Made by a program: the position numbers and the translations under genes
The notes under the pieces: model-generated
What the model saw: the letters and a program-made list of their open reading frames with translations, nothing else
Told to the model about the DNA's origin: nothing
Databases searched by the model: none
Shown: piece after piece, positions 33,099 through 43,754 of the stretch
Position numbering within the stretch: position 1 is the stretch's first letter
How the letters are laid out: each line of letters begins with the position of its first letter
Origin: Methanospirillum stamsii
GTDB taxonomy: Archaea > Halobacteriota > Methanomicrobia > Methanomicrobiales > Methanospirillaceae
Assembly (NCBI RefSeq): GCF_003173335.1
Contig: NZ_QGMZ01000008.1
Location: 62,001 to 126,000 of the forward strand
Direction of reading: 5' to 3'
DNA length: 64,000 bases

Positions 33099-34265
33099 TC
33101 ACATCACCCGGGTTTTATCCGGAATAACCGTGCAGGAAAAATATTTTTCCGATCTTGAATCTATGACTACTTCATTGCCGACTATTGTGTTCTCAAAAAT
33201 CATGTTATGGGAGCAAAACACTCCATTGCCCATTATAACTCCACATGATGCACGGACCGGGATGGTATTGATAGTAATGAAACCCTCTTTATGTACGACC
33301 ATGGAATTCTCTCCAATCGTACAGCCATTACCAATTACTGATCCGCCGATACTACAATGTGATCCAATAACAACATCATTCATTAGGATAGATTTTTTTA
33401 TCACGGTGAATGGTTCCACGACAACCCGTGATCCGATACTACACCCTGATTCTATCACCGCATGTGGTCCGATATTACAGTCTTCACCAATTATTACCGG
33501 ACCAGATATTACCGTTCCCGGATGAATTTTTGTTCCTTTCCCGATTATTACCTTACCCCGGATGGTGGCTGATGCACTGATATTGCCTGATTTTTGGGGG
33601 ACAATGCTGCTTAACAACCTTCCATTCATCATAAGCAGATCCCAGGGGTATATTGCATCCTGCCATGAATGTGCTCTAACCGCAGCAATTTTTGTTCCCT
33701 GGTGGATTTCCTCCTCAATGACCTCGGTCAGACTATTATGGGATATGCGTGATATCAGGTCAGAACTAAGATAATACACCCCGCAACTTACCGTCATTCG
33801 GGTTGCATGTTCTGGTTTTTCAGTAATCCCTGTGACAAATTCTCCTTCTATTGTGACAACGCCAAAATTTGAAGGTTGTCTGTGAGTGGCATAGAGCAGG
33901 GAGTTTTTTGTTTTTACTATCTCCCTGATTGATTCAGCGTCAATAAAATTATCTCCGGGGATGACCAGTGCATCTCCCTTTATCATATTTCGTGCACAAA
34001 GCAGGGCATGGGCTGTTCCCATTTGTTCAGGCTGCTGGACAATCATCACCGGAAAACTGAGCCTGGCCAGATCTCTCATTACCTGTTCTTTCCGAAATCC
34101 GACCACAACAATAATATCACGGATTCCTGCTTTAACAAGAGAATTTATTGTATGTTCAAGGATTGGTTTGTTTGCAACCGGGATAAGAGCTTTTGGACGG
34201 TTCTGGGTAAGGGGACGAAGTCTGATTCCTTCTCCTGCAGCAAGGATAACCGCTTGAAGGCTCAT
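33099..34265 (-). CDS. GlmU-like sugar nucleotidyltransferase with divergent left-handed beta-helix domain
   Basis: A 388-residue protein. The N-terminal 230 residues form a nucleotidyltransferase (AVILAAGEGIRLRPLTQNRPK, with the LAAGxGxRxRPL signature; PGDNFID as the metal-binding Asp region). The C-terminal part has hexapeptide repeats (GKGTKIHPGTVI, GEDCNIGPHAVIESG) of a left-handed beta-helix. It lacks the ANL-type and DTRRRK acetyltransferase blocks present in its neighbour, ending instead in SCTVIPDKTRV. It is therefore more likely a uridylyl/thymidylyltransferase, or acetylates a different acceptor. It is the second of two tandem paralogues, with overlaps on both sides. Confidence 0.85.
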   Translation of the reverse strand: MSLQAVILAAGEGIRLRPLTQNRPKALIPVANKPILEHTINSLVKAGIRDIIVVVGFRKEQVMRDLARLSFPVMIVQQPEQMGTAHALLCARNMIKGDALVIPGDNFIDAESIREIVKTKNSLLYATHRQPSNFGVVTIEGEFVTGITEKPEHATRMTVSCGVYYLSSDLISRISHNSLTEVIEEEIHQGTKIAAVRAHSWQDAIYPWDLLMMNGRLLSSIVPQKSGNISASATIRGKVIIGKGTKIHPGTVISGPVIIGEDCNIGPHAVIESGCSIGSRVVVEPFTVIKKSILMNDVVIGSHCSIGGSVIGNGCTIGENSMVVHKEGFITINTIPVRASCGVIMGNGVFCSHNMIFENTIVGNEVVIDSRSEKYFSCTVIPDKTRVM

Positions 34266-35467
34266 TACCGAATCACCGTTTTATCCTCAATTTTTCCTTC
34301 AACAATTGCATGAGGTCCTATCCGGCATTGGTTACCGACAATTGATCCGACATTTACAGAACAGTTTATTCCAAACAGGACATCATCACCAATGACCGCA
34401 CCAAATTTTCTTCTTCTGGTGTCAATTCCCCCGATTACAATTGATGCTTTATCATGCCGGAGGTTGGCAACTTTTGTCCCTGCACCAAAATTACATCCGC
34501 TTCCAATTATGCTGTCACCAATATACGAAAAATGAGGGACGTTTGTCCTATTCATTATGATGGTATTTTTGAGTTCTGAACAATGGCCGATATGACAGTC
34601 ATTCCCGATGGTTGTGCCAGGTCTGATATATGCATGAGGGCCGATTTTGCAGTTCTCCCCGATAATACATGGACCTTCAAGATAAGTTCCGGACAAGATT
34701 ATTGTTCCGGACCCAATGGATACATTTCCTTTGATGAAAACTCCTTCCTCAATGATCCCCTCATGTTTCGAAGGTGTGGTTTTCATCATTTCTTCATGGA
34801 TTCCAAGGAGATCCCAGGGAGATCCCATATCTGCCCAAAAATCTATTAAAACTCCTCTCAAGTCCCCGTTTCTAATATAATACATTAATGCATCAGTGAG
34901 TTCGAATTCTCCACGGGGGGATGATGTGATGTTTTTCAGAAATTCAAAAATTTTTATGTCAAAGTGGTACAGTCCGGCATTTATCAGGGTACTTGGTGGA
35001 GTTGGAGATTTCTCAACAAGACCTGAAACCATGTCACCTGACAGGGTGACTGATCCATAATCCTGAGGGTGGGTGGATGTGCATACCGCCATAGCGGGAG
35101 CTGGAATATTAAGCACATTACGGACATCTTTGGATTTTAATACAATATCCCCATTCAGGAGAAGGAAGTCCTCCTTAACATGAGGAGATACGGTGAGCAG
35201 GGCATCACCTGTCCCAAGCTGGCGTTTTTGTGTAACGTACCAGATTGATATACATAATTTTGTTCCATCACCAAAGTAGTCCCTTATTGCTGACTCACCA
35301 TATCCGACAACAAGGATAAATTCAGATATCCCTGCATCCCTGACTTCACAAATAAGATGCTCGAGCATCGGTCTTCCTGCAAGCGGGAGCATCACTTTTG
35401 GTCGCGATCCGGTCAGCGGACGCATCCGTTTTCCTTCTCCTGCAGCAAGGATTACACAGACGGTCAA
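34265..35467 (-). CDS. Archaeal GlmU-type bifunctional sugar-1-phosphate nucleotidyltransferase/acetyltransferase
   Basis: A 400-residue protein with an N-terminal nucleotidyltransferase (ILAAGEGKRMRPLTGSRPK, LLNGDIVLKS as the acidic metal site) and a C-terminal left-handed beta-helix acetyltransferase. The helix carries the acetyltransferase signature FGAGTKVANLRHD and DTRRRKFGAVIGDDV, with hexapeptide repeats IGENCKIGPHAYIRPGT. It should convert glucosamine 1-phosphate to UDP-GlcNAc, the step after GlmM. It resembles the archaeal glmU equivalogs recalled from Methanocaldococcus and Sulfolobus. The start overlaps the glmM stop by four bases, and its stop overlaps the next gene by one. Confidence 0.88.
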   Translation of the reverse strand: MTVCVILAAGEGKRMRPLTGSRPKVMLPLAGRPMLEHLICEVRDAGISEFILVVGYGESAIRDYFGDGTKLCISIWYVTQKRQLGTGDALLTVSPHVKEDFLLLNGDIVLKSKDVRNVLNIPAPAMAVCTSTHPQDYGSVTLSGDMVSGLVEKSPTPPSTLINAGLYHFDIKIFEFLKNITSSPRGEFELTDALMYYIRNGDLRGVLIDFWADMGSPWDLLGIHEEMMKTTPSKHEGIIEEGVFIKGNVSIGSGTIILSGTYLEGPCIIGENCKIGPHAYIRPGTTIGNDCHIGHCSELKNTIIMNRTNVPHFSYIGDSIIGSGCNFGAGTKVANLRHDKASIVIGGIDTRRRKFGAVIGDDVLFGINCSVNVGSIVGNQCRIGPHAIVEGKIEDKTVIR

Positions 35468-36738
35468 TTTTTCACCTCATTTCGTGCAATTCTAACCATT
35501 TCCTCCCCTTTTTCCAGTAATTTTTTTGCAACGCTGGCAGTTTTTCCTTCGGCAGTAAATCTGATTTTTGGCTCTGTACCACTTGCCCGAACAAGACACC
35601 ACCCGTCTTCTTCTTCTATCCGGATGCCATCGGTTGGGTTTACTGCACCAAGAGCATATAGCATGTCCTGTGCATTTTCCAGGGAGAGAGAGGTTCTCAT
35701 GATTGGATAACTGGGAATGGATGCAATCTCTGAAGGTAAATCCCATTCTCCCGCCATCTCACAAAATAACGCGGCTGCAAATGGTCCGTCAGGACACCGT
35801 GATATTTGAGGAAATATCCATGCTCCGGAAGGCTCACCACCAAAATCCCCCCATCGCACAAGTTGTTCAGAGACAAATGCATCTCCGACCGGAGTTCTCC
35901 TGACCTCTGCCACCTCTTCTATTGCCATGGATGCATCGTATGTGGTAACCACCTGCTTTGCTCCCAGGTATTTCGTAAAAAGGATGAGCAGAATATCTCC
36001 GGGTATGAATGCCCCGTTTTTATCAAATGCCATCATCCGATCAGCATCCCCGTCATGTATAACGGCACATTCCACTCCGGTTTTTTTCACAAGAGGTGGT
36101 ATATATGTGAGATGTTCCGGGAGTGGCTCAGATGGTCTTACAAAGGTTCCGGAAACATTTGCATTCACAGCAATGGGTTTTGCACCCATGCCACTCAGAA
36201 GGTGAGGGGTGATGACAGAACCTGCTCCATTTCCACAGTCAACAAGAACCTTGAGGTTTTCTTTGATGTGTATTTTATCGGCAATTGCTTTTCGATGTAA
36301 CTCGATTGCTGGTATTGAATGTATTGTTCCCTGGTTTTTCCAGGTTCCCCAGAGAATATCCTCGATTTTTTCTTCTATCTCTTTCTGCTGAATTGCTGAA
36401 TATGATGAACCATCCGGATTGAAGAGTTTCATTCCGTTATATGGTTCAGGATTATGTGATGCTGTTACCACACATGCCGCATCGGTGTTCCTGCCTGCAA
36501 AGGCAATTGATGGGGTAGGGGCAATTCCCCCGTCAAATACCATGGCTCCGGCAGAACAGGCTCCTGCACAAAATGCTGATGACAGGAGGGGCCCGGTTGT
36601 GCGGGTATCTCTTCCGATTACAACCCTCCCATTTTTTGAACCAATTGCCTTTCCCACCTTTACTGCCAGTCTGATAAGATTCTCATCATATCTCCGGCGG
36701 ATTCCCGAAGAGCCGAATAGCATACCTGAATGGTTCAT
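35464..36738 (-). CDS. glmM: Phosphoglucosamine mutase/phosphomannomutase family
   Basis: A 424-residue alpha-D-phosphohexomutase that here should convert glucosamine 6-phosphate to glucosamine 1-phosphate. FGSSGIRRRYDE is the N-terminal signature. The phosphoserine loop is VVTASHNPEPYNGMK, the metal loop DGDADRMMAFD, and the sugar-binding loop GEPSGAWIFP, followed by the phosphate loop VRASGTEPKIRF. Archaeal family members can also act on mannose or glucose phosphates; the flanking glmU and glmS genes favour glucosamine. It overlaps both neighbours by four bases. Confidence 0.92.
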   Translation of the reverse strand: MNHSGMLFGSSGIRRRYDENLIRLAVKVGKAIGSKNGRVVIGRDTRTTGPLLSSAFCAGACSAGAMVFDGGIAPTPSIAFAGRNTDAACVVTASHNPEPYNGMKLFNPDGSSYSAIQQKEIEEKIEDILWGTWKNQGTIHSIPAIELHRKAIADKIHIKENLKVLVDCGNGAGSVITPHLLSGMGAKPIAVNANVSGTFVRPSEPLPEHLTYIPPLVKKTGVECAVIHDGDADRMMAFDKNGAFIPGDILLILFTKYLGAKQVVTTYDASMAIEEVAEVRRTPVGDAFVSEQLVRWGDFGGEPSGAWIFPQISRCPDGPFAAALFCEMAGEWDLPSEIASIPSYPIMRTSLSLENAQDMLYALGAVNPTDGIRIEEEDGWCLVRASGTEPKIRFTAEGKTASVAKKLLEKGEEMVRIARNEVKN

Positions 36739-37358
36739 TCTTCAGATGTTTGAAGGTTTGCTCTTCCATATGGGCAGAAATGATTGCATCCGAGGAAATA
36801 GGCTACTCCTGCTGTTGATGGTCCCAGGCATAGGAGTTTTTCAATGGGGCATTGTCCGATTATCTCACTATTATTATCAATAAGCCCGTCCCCGGTGATG
36901 AGAATGACATCCGCGTCATCAGGTTTGTCAACCAGATAACTTCCTGCCAGTTTTCTTGCATCCGGCATCTCTCCACAGCAAAAGACTTTTTTCCCTTTGA
37001 TCTGCCCGGACAGTGTCTCTCTGCAGGAGACATGCTGATCTTGGGAACAGGCGTGCAGTTTTCTGCTGACACATAAAAACCCGGCAACAGCATTTACGAT
37101 ACCTGCAGCTGCAGCACGTTGGGCCGGTTTTTTAAGGGTTGCATTTATCATGAAAGAGGCCTTTGTCGTTGCTTTTACTGGTTCTTCTGATACAAAAACT
37201 GCAGAACGGCCTCCGAAGAGAGTCTGGACCGGAACGCCATGTTCATATGCGCACTTTGTAAGGTCATAATCCGGTGTCAGAAAGACCGGACTTTCTTCGA
37301 TTCCACATTCTTTCATCATTGAAATTAATTTCTGCACTGCCTGATTGATTGGATGCAT
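36735..37358 (-). CDS. Unknown cysteine-rich protein in amino-sugar operon (weak DUF364 resemblance)
   Basis: A 207-residue protein with eleven cysteines that I cannot assign. The ATG at 37358 is chosen over an upstream Met at 37445 because it has GGAGAG upstream and avoids a long overlap with pcm. VILITGDGLIDNNS followed by LLCLGPSTAGVAYFLG looks like the C-terminal Rossmann-like half of DUF364 (a putative metal-chelation domain), but this is a weak impression. Notable cysteine groups are FCCGEMPD and GCNHFCPYG. Its stop overlaps the glmM start by four bases, so it is tightly coexpressed with UDP-GlcNAc synthesis. No signal peptide; probably cytoplasmic. Confidence 0.75.
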   Translation of the reverse strand: MHPINQAVQKLISMMKECGIEESPVFLTPDYDLTKCAYEHGVPVQTLFGGRSAVFVSEEPVKATTKASFMINATLKKPAQRAAAAGIVNAVAGFLCVSRKLHACSQDQHVSCRETLSGQIKGKKVFCCGEMPDARKLAGSYLVDKPDDADVILITGDGLIDNNSEIIGQCPIEKLLCLGPSTAGVAYFLGCNHFCPYGRANLQTSEE

Positions 37359-37362
37359 ATCT

Positions 37363-38019
37363 TTACTCTCCTTCTTCTTTCCACCCATACTCTCCAATGA
37401 GGGGGACAAATCGTACCGCCCCGAATTTCTCGGTGATAAACTCATTATTGAGTCTTGTAATGCGAATCAATTCCTGGATATTCTGGTCTCCGACCGGGGC
37501 CACAAGTCGTCCACCTGGTGCCAGTTCATTGATGAGTGGACAAGGGATTTCTGGTGTACCGGCGGTGATGAGAATTCCATCATAAGGACTCATGTCAGTG
37601 TATCCTACTGTCCCGTCACTGGTTATGATTCTGACATTTTTTATACCTGCATTCAGAAGGTTTTGTCTTGCCTGTGCGGCTACTTCTTCTATTCGTTCAA
37701 TGGATACCACATCTGCCCCGCATGTTGCAAGAATTGCTGCCTGGTATCCGGAACCGGTCCCAATCTCAAGAACGAGGTCACTTGGATTCGGGCTTAGGAG
37801 TTCTGTCATTACTGCAACAATGTATGGCTGGGATATTGTCTGTCCGCTCCCGATGGGAAGGGGGTAATCAGCATATGCTTCTCTTTGACAGGTTTGTGGG
37901 ACGAACAGGTGTCGGGGCACAGTACGCATGGCATCTAATACACGGGGATTTGAGACTCCCCTGGCCTGAATTTGTGTTCTGACCATATGTTCGCGTTCTG
38001 GTGCCCGGCTGGTATCCAT
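37363..38019 (-). CDS. pcm: Protein-L-isoaspartate O-methyltransferase
   Basis: A 218-residue SAM-dependent repair methyltransferase that methylates L-isoaspartyl residues in aged proteins. GSGQTISQPYIVA is the substrate-binding region, LEIGTGSGYQAAIL the SAM-binding motif I, and VSIERIEEVA the ribose-binding acidic strand. The post-I and motif II (DGILITAG) segments are intact. Length is normal for archaea. It lies three bases from the SufB/D gene upstream and four bases before the unknown gene downstream, and so belongs to the same transcriptional run. Confidence 0.94.
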   Translation of the reverse strand: MDTSRAPEREHMVRTQIQARGVSNPRVLDAMRTVPRHLFVPQTCQREAYADYPLPIGSGQTISQPYIVAVMTELLSPNPSDLVLEIGTGSGYQAAILATCGADVVSIERIEEVAAQARQNLLNAGIKNVRIITSDGTVGYTDMSPYDGILITAGTPEIPCPLINELAPGGRLVAPVGDQNIQELIRITRLNNEFITEKFGAVRFVPLIGEYGWKEEGE

Positions 38020-40347: not shown

Positions 40348-43300
40348 TTATGAAGAATTACCCTGGTTGCCTTCAGATGCAACTGATGCTACGGACGCCG
40401 GAATAACCGGGGTGATATCTCCCCCGGTGCCGGACCCGCTACTTCCTGCTGTCATCTGGGCAAGAACATATGATGTTCTTCCTTCAAGGACATTTACTAC
40501 CTGTTCCCATGGCTGGTAACCCGGAACTTCTATTCTTATGGTATGCTGACCCGGAGTTACCTGTGAAAGTGTCACCGGAGTTTGTCCTTGTGCAACTCCG
40601 TCAAGGAATGCAACCCCGTTACCTGGTAGTGATGAGATCATAACATACCCGTAAATAGGTGTCCACCATGAGGGATACAGGGCAGCAGTAACATAGGTTA
40701 CACTTCCTCCACCTCTGACCTCAACTGCCTGATTCCAGTCAAGATATCCGGTTGATGTTACACGGACCTGGTGAACTCCTGGTGCCACATCTGCAAGCCA
40801 GAGCGGACCGTTTCCGGAGAGCACTCCGTCCACGTAGACAGACCCTCCTGATGGGTATGTGTATACACTCAGAATACCATTCACGCTTGGCTGAAGTCTC
40901 ATATCTGCGACAACTTCAGTGGCCCTGTTAGAGGTGACCGGAACACTGACAATATAATCTGTGAATCCGGGTTTGGTTACTTTGAGCTGGTATACACCAG
41001 CCTGCAGGTTATCTACCCTGAAGGTCTGCAGGAATTTCGTCTCACCTTTCAGTACATTATCCAGATACACTGTCGAACGGTCAGGAGCATATATAATTTT
41101 TATCGAACCTGAACCAGCCGGTCCTGACTGGGTTGTAATGTAATCGGATTTGACTGCAGTATTTGAAGATGCCTGATTACTTGCCGTGAGTTTAACGGTA
41201 AACCGTCCGAGCTGCTGGTAGACATGGAGTGGGTTTGCCACCAAATCCGTGGTTCCATCCCCAAAGTCCCATGCCCACATGGTTGGTCCACCCTGTGATC
41301 TGTCACTAAACTGAACGGCGAGTGGAATATTTCCTGTGGTTGGTGTTCCCACAAAGTCAGCGATGATTCCTCCGGAAGATGAAACCGTGATGTACCCTTC
41401 TCTGACTTTGGTACTGGTTCCCCCGGTTTGTGAACTTGCGGTGAGTGTTACCGTGTATGTCCCTGCATTCTGATAGGTATGTGACGGATTTGCCACCAAA
41501 TCCGTGGTTCCATCTCCAAAGTTCCAAGCCCACATGGTCGGGCTTCCGGATGACAGGTCAGTGAACTGAACCGTCAGTGGAGCATTTCCGGTTGTCGGAG
41601 TTCCGGAAAAGTCTGCAACAATACCTCCTGAAGATGAAACCGTGATGTACCCTTCTCTGACTTTGGTGCTGGTTCCGCCTGTCTGTGAACTTGCCGTAAG
41701 TTTAACTGTGTAAGTTCCGGCATTCTGATAGGTATGTGATGGGTTTGCCAGCATTCCTTCTGTTGCCCCGTCTCCAAAGTCCCAACTCCACATGGTCGGA
41801 TTTCCGGTCGACAGGTCAGTAAACTGGACGGTGAGTGGAGCATTTCCGGTTGTCGGGGTTCCTGAAAAGTCTGCAACAATACCGGTTCCTCCACCAACGG
41901 AGATATAATTCTCCCGTTTCATGGTGTGAGAACCACCACTGTTTTTCACGGTAAGGGTGACGGTATACGAACCACCTGCACTGTACACGTGAGTCGGGTC
42001 AGATTCTGTCGATGTGGTCCCATCTCCAAAGTTCCAGAGGTAAGAGGTTGGTGGCCCGATTGAAAGATCGGTAAAGCTTACCGACAGCGGAGCCTGCCCG
42101 GACAGGGGTGTTGCTTCAAACATTGCCACCGGGGGAGGAATATCTCCTGTGACTGATATATAGTCGGTTTCGGTTTTGGTATTGGATCCGGCTGTATTTG
42201 ATGCGGTAAGACTTACGGTATATACTCCCGCTTCCTGGTAGGTATGTGATGGATTTGCTACCAAATCCGTGGTTCCATCTCCAAAGTCCCATGCCCACAT
42301 GGTTGGGCTTCCGGTTGACTGGTCAGTAAACTGGACGGTGAGTGGCTTTGGTCCACTCCGTTTATCCACGGTAAATGCAGCTGTCGGGCCTGAACCTGAC
42401 TGTGTAACGGTGATGTATCCCTCTTTTGTCTTTGTACTGGTACCTCCGGTCTGTGAACTTGCGGTGAGTGTCACGGTGTAAGTTCCCGGATTCTGATAGG
42501 TATGTGATGGGCTTGCCAGCATTCCCTCAGAGGTACCATCTCCAAAGTTCCAGTTCCACATCGTCGGACTACCGGTTGACAGGTCAGTGAACTGAACGGT
42601 GAGTGGAGCATTTCCAGAAGTGGGAACTCCTGAAAAGTCTGCGACTATACTGCCGGACTGTGTCACGGTGATGTATCCCTCTTTCGTCTTTGTACTGGTT
42701 CCTCCGGTCTGTGAACTTGCGGTGAGTGTCACGGTGTAAGTTCCCGGATTCTGATAAGTATGTGATGGGCTTGCCAGCATTCCCTCAGAGGTACCATCTC
42801 CAAAGTTCCAGTTCCACATCGTCGGACTACCGGTTGACAGGTCTGTAAACTGAACGGTGAGTGGAGCATTTCCAGAAGTTGGCACTCCTGAAAAGTCTGC
42901 AACAATACCACCTGACTGTGTCACGGTGATGAAATTATTTTTGGTAACCGTATAGTATCCGCCTAATGATCCGACGGTCATTTTTACGGTATATGTTCCC
43001 GGAGATTCGTAAACATGGGTTGGGTTTTTAATAACTGAACTTCCGCCATCTCCGAAATCCCAGGTCCAGACTGCCCATTCTGTTGTTGATGTATCGGTAA
43101 ACTGAACGGTGAGCGGAGCAGTTCCGGTGGTGGGTGTGGCGGTAAAATCAGCACCAAACGATCCTCCTACTGTCAGATCAAGCTCCTTAGCAGTTCCCGG
43201 TTCAAATGGAACCGTCTGATCCGCTTTATTCTCTCCGACATAAAATGAAATTGTCGAATTACTTGATTTTACGTCATCTTCCGTCGCAGCGACAACCAGT

Positions 43301-43542
43301 TTATCATCAAAGATACCATCCCCGCCATATAGCCCGGCGGTTGATAATACCAGTTGACCTCTGACCTGATCATTAATTTTTGCAACAAGTGTAGTGCCGG
43401 AAGCAGCGTCAGTTCCGTCTACCGTCACTTTACCATAAAATTCAGCAGGCAGTGGTGGTACTGCACTTACTGTAATCATTACGAGGCAAAGCAGAACTGC
43501 CAGCATCGCCGCCGGCCTGAGTATTCGAATCCCATCCATCAT
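40348..43542 (-). CDS. Exported PKD/PEGA multidomain surface protein
   Basis: A protein of about 1064 residues. The start MMDGIRILRP at 43542, preceded by GGGGATG, begins a signal peptide (AAMLAVLLCLVMITVSA); an upstream Met at 43674 would bury it. After an N-terminal beta domain of about 125 residues come eight PKD domains, each with the WxFGDG core and a HTY/HVY motif. Three PEGA domains follow near the C-terminus (VYLDNVLKG, VYVDGVLSG and AFLDGVAQG cores). PKD units 2 and 3 are identical over their visible length and nearly identical in DNA. The tail is short and Ser/Gly-rich with no membrane helix or sorting motif. Expected at the cell surface or secreted, perhaps in adhesion or sheath structure. 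Confidence 0.9.
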   Translation of the reverse strand: MMDGIRILRPAAMLAVLLCLVMITVSAVPPLPAEFYGKVTVDGTDAASGTTLVAKINDQVRGQLVLSTAGLYGGDGIFDDKLVVAATEDDVKSSNSTISFYVGENKADQTVPFEPGTAKELDLTVGGSFGADFTATPTTGTAPLTVQFTDTSTTEWAVWTWDFGDGGSSVIKNPTHVYESPGTYTVKMTVGSLGGYYTVTKNNFITVTQSGGIVADFSGVPTSGNAPLTVQFTDLSTGSPTMWNWNFGDGTSEGMLASPSHTYQNPGTYTVTLTASSQTGGTSTKTKEGYITVTQSGSIVADFSGVPTSGNAPLTVQFTDLSTGSPTMWNWNFGDGTSEGMLASPSHTYQNPGTYTVTLTASSQTGGTSTKTKEGYITVTQSGSGPTAAFTVDKRSGPKPLTVQFTDQSTGSPTMWAWDFGDGTTDLVANPSHTYQEAGVYTVSLTASNTAGSNTKTETDYISVTGDIPPPVAMFEATPLSGQAPLSVSFTDLSIGPPTSYLWNFGDGTTSTESDPTHVYSAGGSYTVTLTVKNSGGSHTMKRENYISVGGGTGIVADFSGTPTTGNAPLTVQFTDLSTGNPTMWSWDFGDGATEGMLANPSHTYQNAGTYTVKLTASSQTGGTSTKVREGYITVSSSGGIVADFSGTPTTGNAPLTVQFTDLSSGSPTMWAWNFGDGTTDLVANPSHTYQNAGTYTVTLTASSQTGGTSTKVREGYITVSSSGGIIADFVGTPTTGNIPLAVQFSDRSQGGPTMWAWDFGDGTTDLVANPLHVYQQLGRFTVKLTASNQASSNTAVKSDYITTQSGPAGSGSIKIIYAPDRSTVYLDNVLKGETKFLQTFRVDNLQAGVYQLKVTKPGFTDYIVSVPVTSNRATEVVADMRLQPSVNGILSVYTYPSGGSVYVDGVLSGNGPLWLADVAPGVHQVRVTSTGYLDWNQAVEVRGGGSVTYVTAALYPSWWTPIYGYVMISSLPGNGVAFLDGVAQGQTPVTLSQVTPGQHTIRIEVPGYQPWEQVVNVLEGRTSYVLAQMTAGSSGSGTGGDITPVIPASVASVASEGNQGNSS
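42397..42912 (-). repeat. Tandem near-identical PKD-coding repeat, two units of about 258 bp
   Basis: Bases about 42397-42654 and 42655-42912 are direct repeats that encode PKD domains 2 and 3. They differ at only about a dozen positions, which appear to be synonymous. Long shared runs include the segment at 42476-42590 matched at 42734-42848. Other PKD units in the gene are clearly more diverged. This indicates a recent duplication or gene conversion within the gene. Confidence 0.85.
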
Positions 43543-43754
43543 TACATCCCCTAAAGAAGCGTATTTTCCTGATGTGAAGATCAGGATTTGTAAGTTTCCT
43601 GAGTGTTTGAATATTGTACACAGGAGAGATAAGGATTGTGGAAGAAACCCTCTTTGAGTGGTTGTTATCGACAAAGGGCTATGCTGAAAAAATATCCTTT
43701 TTCAGGTATATTTGATAATGAATGTAAAAATACGGATAAAAATGGAAAAGAAAA
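43543..43754. promoter_or_regulatory. Spacer between PKD/PEGA gene and sepS
   Basis: A 212-base AT-rich spacer upstream of the exported protein, both flanking genes being on the minus strand. It should contain the sepS terminator and the PKD gene promoter. T-rich stretches on the minus strand near 43735-43760 could terminate sepS. No tRNA or other RNA gene was recognised. Confidence 0.3.

Follow-up and report, generated by a model that had tools for sequence, protein, structure and literature searches.

The closest described counterpart of the system considered here is SMS, the minimal SUF machinery formed by SmsC and SmsB, which the accessible part of a 2025 paper describes as consisting of two proteins only (PMC12192291). 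As reported there, SmsCB of M. jannaschii binds a [4Fe-4S] cluster through three cysteines of SmsC, neither a desulfurase nor an A-type carrier was found, and the way in which a carrier-less SmsCB distributes its clusters is called open. A second point of comparison is the DUF364 family. The available part of PMC2954201 proposes that its members are enzymes with a deep interdomain pocket, the function being a proposal that was not tested, describes the residues of that pocket (an acidic residue and a Thr/Asp motif) and reports tungstate and molybdate genes as neighbours. Here, we analysed a window of 64,000 nucleotides from Methanospirillum stamsii (contig NZ_QGMZ01000008.1, positions 62,001 to 126,000; order Methanomicrobiales, class Methanomicrobia and phylum Halobacteriota in GTDB, hereafter the order, the class and the phylum) and focused on a 207-residue, DUF364-related protein with four invariant cysteines, encoded at window positions 36735-37358 on the reverse strand, to which we give the working name DUFX. 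DUFX belongs to the core gene set of the order, and we propose, with a probability of about one in three, that it could be a DUF364-derived metal or iron-sulfur (Fe-S) protein serving SmsCB.

Cysteine conservation was counted on 118 distinct sequences from 150 loci, with the partial sequences L168, L169 and L172 excluded, because a smaller alignment of 46 loci contains duplicates (L012 and L034, for example). The translated window protein has 11 cysteines, at positions 18, 36, 96, 104, 112, 127, 128, 170, 177, 191 and 195. First, C36, C104, C112 and C195 are cysteine in all 118 sequences and C96 in 110 of them. Second, the remaining positions are variable, with a cysteine in 33 sequences at C127, 22 at C177, 14 at each of C18 and C191, 7 at C128 and 3 at C170. 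Third, the same positions stand out in a set thinned to less than 60% identity, where C36, C104, C112 and C195 are conserved in 37/37 sequences and C96 in 34/37. Nine positions of DUFX never vary, and cysteine occupies four of them (hypergeometric P 0.0005, phylogeny being ignored). Some cysteines common in the family, for instance at columns 20 (93/118) and 43 (82/118), are absent from the window protein, and no conserved CxxC pair was seen in the 118 sequences. The motifs that the first-pass annotation had singled out, FCCGEM and GCNHFCPYG, are mostly unconserved: according to these counts, FCCGEM (C127 and C128) is mostly lineage-specific and GCNHFCPYG is kept in its second cysteine (C195) alone. 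Hence, the expectation that orthologues would conserve the cysteines stands for the four invariant ones and nearly so for C96, but not for six of the 11. Since four cysteines are invariant throughout, metal or Fe-S binding is plausible, and DUFX more likely than not would have a cysteine-bound metal or cluster.

We then asked what kind of protein carries these cysteines. The window protein is not matched by the Pfam model of DUF364 (PF04016, gathering cut-off 23 bits) at E up to 10, and that model matches two of 24 DUFX orthologues, weakly (best E 0.012). An AlphaFold2 model of DUFX computed from a 24-row alignment (predicted local distance difference test, pLDDT, 93.6; predicted template modelling score, pTM, 0.90) gave nothing at E 0.001 with Foldseek alone against the PDB, unrelated folds being ranked first. 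With a second-look aligner, the same model gave 3npg (PH1506) at Z 10.4 (175 aligned residues, 4.1 Å) and 3l5o (Dhaf4260) at Z 10.1 (166 aligned, 3.4 Å), which are the two solved DUF364 structures, and the next row had a Z of 4.9. Among the 997 chains aligned, six reached Z 5 and all six of these also reached 8; the entries shown above 4.9 are 3npg and 3l5o. Because a best Z of 7 to 8 commonly arises by chance with this aligner, the fold evidence taken alone is good but not overwhelming. Several other candidates were set aside. A weak match to PTS_EIIB_BC_N covered 30 residues in 6 of 24 members (best E 0.0035) and scored 13.9 bits on the window protein against a cut-off of 27.4; six further families were each weakly matched by one member; and three PDB sequence matches to the family profile (E 0.8-1.1) were taken as chance.

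A subfamily of cysteine-bearing DUF364 proteins, which we call the bridge subfamily, links DUFX to DUF364 more firmly. A search of 392 genomes of the phylum with the DUFX family profile gave 13 matches outside the order, weak throughout. One of them (L091) is a canonical DUF364 protein, and four were dropped, namely two other open reading frames (L083, and L087 which reads as a CobW-type GTPase) and two frames with a stop (G247 and G442). The other eight, together with five further members, form the bridge set of 13 proteins, of about 245-275 residues. Alignments of the first eight to the DUFX profile are split into two or three segments (five alignments among the matches listed). Twelve of the 13 score 32.2-59 bits with PF04016, and the last one (L183) scores 19.1. 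Profile comparison with hhalign matched DUFX to eight bridge proteins at 98.3% (E 1.5e-14, 199 columns), while controls made of reversed alignments and eight neighbour families reached at most 1.8%. In the reverse direction, a bridge profile retrieved canonical DUF364 proteins and, in seven genomes of the order, DUFX as well, through its C-terminal part (E 4e-7 to 7e-6). Set directly against three canonical DUF364 members, DUFX gave 88.2% and E 2.9e-6, over just 102 columns. For a structural model of a bridge protein (pLDDT 78.5), the best matches were again 3npg (Z 14.5) and 3l5o (Z 13.6), a result that is less distinctive because many Rossmann-fold proteins come next, from 11.2 and then at 9.6 and below. 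Together, fold and profiles bear out the resemblance to DUF364 suspected by the first-pass annotation, remote as it is, and we are confident that DUFX descends from this family. The domain that accompanies PF04016 in canonical members, DUF4213 (PF13938), likewise has a Pfam model that does not match the window protein, and no paper naming DUF4213 was found in the open-licence literature.

The alignments indicate what DUFX has in common with its relatives and what sets it apart. The two-domain fold is common to DUFX and canonical DUF364 proteins, and DUFX keeps their helix Asn (N89, in 3/3 members) and loop Gly (G50, in 2/3). However, its Rossmann-like part is shorter and its C-terminus is truncated before the last canonical strands, and cysteines at columns 36, 96, 104, 112 and 195 are found on the DUFX side only when compared with the three aligned canonical members. 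An N-x-T motif kept in 8/8 bridge proteins and in two of three canonical members (not in L091) is missing from 8/8 DUFX rows, and a segment with an acidic residue is a gap in 8/8 DUFX rows, as aligned between remote sequences. The closest relatives found are the bridge proteins. Both groups have a C-x7-C pair and a C-terminal cysteine of the FC/WC/YC type, present in 13/13 bridge sequences (rows of at least 210 letters were counted, shorter fragments such as L186, L188 and L189 being excluded). Unlike DUFX, bridge proteins are longer, retain N-x-T, have a C212 in 9/13 cases and lack a cysteine at column 36 (eight aligned). The bridge family (L081, L082, L084, L085, L086, L088, L089, L090, L182-L185 and L187, with HC-x7-C) seems to be a distinct branch of metal-handling proteins that is still uncharacterised.

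The M. stamsii genome also encodes two canonical DUF364 proteins (G000:C52, L101, and G000:C29, L102). According to a reading of the open reading frames, one is divergent from a DtxR/MntR-type metal regulator and the other faces, in convergent orientation, an ABC transporter of the metal or siderophore type.

DUFX orthologues were found in 192 of 199 genomes sampled from the class, all listed as the same order or closer, so that the gene is real beyond chance. All 135 near-complete genomes (at least 90% complete, at most 5% contaminated) have it. A single match was found in 187 of the 192 genomes and two matches in the other five (G100, G126, G152, G168 and G195). In the profile search of the phylum, 96 of the 392 genomes had a match, of which 83 belong to the order, with E-values no higher than 2.2e-48; no strong match was found among the 309 genomes sampled outside the order. 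A scan of genome contigs with the single protein gave no relative. Named relatives among 69 loci belong to Methanoculleus, Methanoregula, Methanofollis and Methanolinea, and others are labelled Methanomicrobiales, Methanomicrobiaceae, Methanoregulaceae or just Euryarchaeota. We met no paper on the DUFX gene in the open-licence literature.

Gene linkage was counted at 68 distinct loci whose flanks reach 5 kilobases (kb) or more upstream and 2.5 kb or more downstream, glmM being counted within 2 kb; these are counts of sequences, not of independent events. Short flanks left out 24 of 92 distinct loci, and the set leans to Methanoculleus and Methanoregula because the search was seeded from such sequences. 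DUFX is accompanied by smsC, smsB and a cyclase-family gene at 67 loci each, by glmM at 62 and by pcm at 60. Six loci have smsB without glmM (L049, L093, L098, L100, L150 and L158) and one has glmM without smsB (L036). Linkage of DUFX to smsC-smsB is thus a little tighter than to glmM. Accordingly, the description of DUFX as locked into the GlmM operon is right for most loci but does not name the tightest linkage, and the SufB/D gene said to lie upstream in the same run was confirmed, with pcm in between. We use the name SMS because two genes are arranged in this way; smsB matches the corresponding NCBIfam model far below its cut-off. The identification of smsC is based on two examples with 184.5 and 205.7 bits for TIGR01978 (sufC), slightly under its cut-off of 212.8, and on the three-cysteine tail of smsC. 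In the M. stamsii genome, DUFX, pcm, smsB and glmM stand together, smsB is the sole SUFBD_core match, smsC stands apart and no close counterpart of the operon cyclase was found.

The cyclase-family gene itself (L041:7804-8415 and equivalents) almost always accompanies smsB and DUFX; it lies upstream of DUFX, and the one example scanned matched PF04199 at 83 bits. The sole PF04199 match of the M. stamsii genome (G000:C23:3628-4146, L212), on a third contig, is no more than a distant relative of the operon cyclase, being just 28% identical to that type over 116 residues.

Regarding cluster delivery, a search of 61 genomes of the order for A-type carriers (SufA/IscA, PF01521) gave none, although the control search detected such proteins in 9 of 14 named genomes, M. 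acetivorans among them. The likeness of DUFX to these carriers lies in the proposed job alone, namely keeping a cluster and handing it over; unlike them, it has no PF01521 match and a DUF364-type fold. Compared with the two-protein SMS, DUFX would be an addition within one order. The available part of PMC12584684 holds nothing on a DUFX-like partner.

The proposal that DUFX serves SmsCB starts from its open reading frame, its conservation across the order, its fold kinship, its invariant cysteines, its linkage to smsC-smsB and the lack of an A-type carrier match. In its favour, too, all 13 of the 61 genomes in which IscU/NifU_N was not found have DUFX. DUFX would be a two-domain protein, with an enolase-N-like domain and a shortened Rossmann-like domain, derived from DUF364. 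On the most parsimonious view, ancestral DUF364 cysteines may already have stood at a metal-sulfur site, and the nucleotide-like pocket would have been lost in the ancestor of the order, a decay suggested in the alignment by the disappearance of N-x-T, the missing acidic segment and the truncated last strands. The C-x7-C pair, predicted to lie between the two domains, and the C-terminal cysteine would have been kept in common with the bridge subfamily, and C36 and the near-invariant C96 would be additions specific to DUFX. We infer that these cysteines form one site, which would bind a metal such as iron or, more likely, an Fe-S cluster. Once taken into the smsC-smsB gene run, DUFX would work with the SmsC2B2 complex encoded beside it, presumably as a carrier or an acceptor of clusters or metal, the direction of transfer being part of the conjecture. 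By itself, a role with SmsCB is a tentative and rather doubtful assignment. Further-reaching, and unlikely in our estimation, is the idea that DUFX is the missing SMS cluster carrier or acceptor, replaces A-type carriers in an entire methanogen order and represents a new kind of Fe-S trafficking. If that idea were true, a metal-handling DUF364 protein would have given rise to DUFX when its nucleotide pocket was lost and a site of three to five cysteines stayed, and among cysteine-based carriers of metal and sulfur the relatives linked to molybdenum or tungsten (Mo/W) would be the older branch. DUFX, as a core and cysteine-invariant protein encoded near smsB, is in any case a concrete and purifiable candidate for cluster distribution in SMS, and it would offer a first biochemical handle on DUF364.

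Several observations weigh against a partnership with SmsCB. First, according to the accessible part of PMC12192291, SmsCB of M. jannaschii needs no such partner to assemble clusters or, when sulfide is supplied, to rescue an E. coli strain lacking isc and suf, and direct transfer or Mrp is suggested there rather than a new carrier. SufBC is dispensable in M. acetivorans, as stated in the accessible part of PMC10500019. Second, DUFX is no general part of SMS, since it is absent as a strong match from the 309 genomes outside the order whereas a survey of 326 genomes of methanogens and alkanotrophs reports SufBC in 311 (PMC8351635, accessible part). Third, 48 of the 61 genomes also have a scaffold of the IscU/NifU type (IscU/NifU_N). 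Fourth, smsC lies on another contig in the M. stamsii genome (G000:C44:24602-25336, L204), and the linkage may reflect general operon conservation because the cyclase-family gene is equally tightly linked. Finally, the nearest relatives of DUFX, the bridge proteins, sit with Mo/W and nitrogenase-type genes and not with sms.

This last point brings in the strongest rival, in which DUFX would bind molybdate, tungstate or a thio-form of them for formylmethanofuran dehydrogenase and similar enzymes, sharing the probable job of its bridge relatives, and the sms neighbourhood would be incidental or reflect a need for sulfide. As a raw count, ten of the 13 bridge loci lie near a Mo/W- or nitrogenase-type gene, the cut-off of one or more curated models being exceeded in each case. 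The neighbours comprise ModA (L081, L084 and L086), ModB (L081, L082 and L084), nifV-type homocitrate synthase (L085 and L088), nitrogenase component 1 (L089), FdhD (L090), MobB (L182) and molybdopterin oxidoreductase (L082, L090 and L184), in agreement with the tungstate and molybdate neighbours reported for DUF364 (PMC2954201, accessible part). Three cysteines are also common to DUFX and the bridge proteins. However, three bridge loci (L183, L185 and L187) are without such a gene in the flanks seen, 1.5 kb to either side. The DUFX neighbourhoods showed no Mo/W gene on inspection, no search with Mo/W profiles having been made there, and DUFX lacks both the N-x-T motif that bridge and most aligned canonical members keep and the acidic segment. 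We regard a function in Mo/W handling as rather improbable.

Alternatively, DUFX might be an enzyme of small-molecule chemistry, using a metal or Fe-S cluster that its cysteines hold in the former interdomain cleft of DUF364, and be paired with the cyclase-family hydrolase that is its neighbour in most of the order. The near-constant presence of that gene upstream speaks for it, as do the proposal that DUF364 proteins are enzymes and the alignment of N89 and G50 with canonical residues. On the other hand, N-x-T and the acidic segment are not kept, and M. stamsii has DUFX without a close counterpart of the cyclase. We consider such an activity distinctly unlikely.

Less likely still is that DUFX is a structural zinc or disulfide protein, acting as a scaffold, chaperone or assembly factor without transferring metal, a possibility that we count against the SmsCB proposal. 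Four invariant cysteines would fit a structural zinc site, and no catalytic signature was recognised; yet no conserved CxxC pair was seen, strict anaerobes seldom depend on disulfides, and the three shared cysteines recur in proteins standing mostly beside Mo/W and nitrogenase-type genes. The weakest alternative is the redox- or metal-responsive regulator of amino-sugar synthesis suggested by the first-pass annotation, which we consider very improbable: cysteines could sense redox or metal and glmM lies downstream at most loci, but smsB without glmM occurs at six loci against one for the reverse, the window protein matched no DNA-binding or regulatory family in Pfam or NCBIfam, and its fold belongs to a metal-linked family.

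Coordinates of DUFX, of its conserved cysteine codons and of the surrounding genes are given in Table 1. Translation confirmed the 207-residue protein, its 11 cysteines and both motifs at the expected place. The mechanical open reading frame is longer (236 residues, from an ATG at 37445), and we prefer the start at ATG 37358 because GGAGAG precedes it, the pcm stop codon (37365-37363) lies just ahead of it and orthologues align from there, the orthologue starts in this alignment having been chosen by script. The four-base overlap with glmM, also noted on first inspection, exists if glmM starts at its first ATG (36738). It is no conserved feature, because about 20 to 470 nucleotides lie between the stop of DUFX and the aligned start of glmM at 62 other loci. 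An alternative ATG five codons further on presumably gives the usual amino end of GlmM, in which case the overlap would vanish.

Table 1. Features of the DUFX locus, in window coordinates.
Feature	Start	End	Strand	Basis or remark
DUFX	36735	37358	-	207 residues plus stop; translation, orthologues, fold, hhalign, cysteine counts
GGAGAG, Shine-Dalgarno-like	37366	37371	-	7 bases before ATG 37358; read by eye
Codon C36	37251	37253	-	Cys in 118/118 DUFX; other residue in 8 aligned bridge proteins
Codon C96	37071	37073	-	Cys in 110/118 DUFX; Gly in 8 aligned bridge proteins
Codon C104	37047	37049	-	Cys in 118/118 DUFX and 13/13 bridge proteins
Codon C112 (C104-x7-C112)	37023	37025	-	Cys in 118/118 DUFX and 13/13 bridge proteins
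Codon C195 (WCP/FCP near C-terminus)	36774	36776	-	Cys in 118/118 DUFX and 13/13 bridge proteins
SmsB/SufB-type scaffold	38023	39135	-	PF01458, 135 bits; NCBIfam SmsB, 169.5 bits, under cut-off of 650
pcm, protein-L-isoaspartate O-methyltransferase, between smsB and DUFX	37363	38019	-	TIGR00080, 217.6 bits, cut-off 159
Archaeal GlmM-type protein, directly downstream of DUFX	35464	36738	-	TIGR03990, 425 bits, slightly under cut-off of 439
Archaeal GlmU-type nucleotidylyltransferase/acetyltransferase	34265	35467	-	TIGR03992, 528 bits, cut-off 292
Second GlmU-type protein	33099	34265	-	TIGR03992, 288 bits, slightly under cut-off of 292
GlmS	31357	33102	-	TIGR01135, 688 bits, cut-off 418

Two observations concern the surroundings of the locus. 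The tandem pair of GlmU-type genes (window 33099-35467) is present at most of the relatives' loci that were inspected. Upstream of the HAD-sms-glm run, at window 40348-43674, lies an open reading frame of 1108 residues with many near-identical repeats that read as the PKD type.

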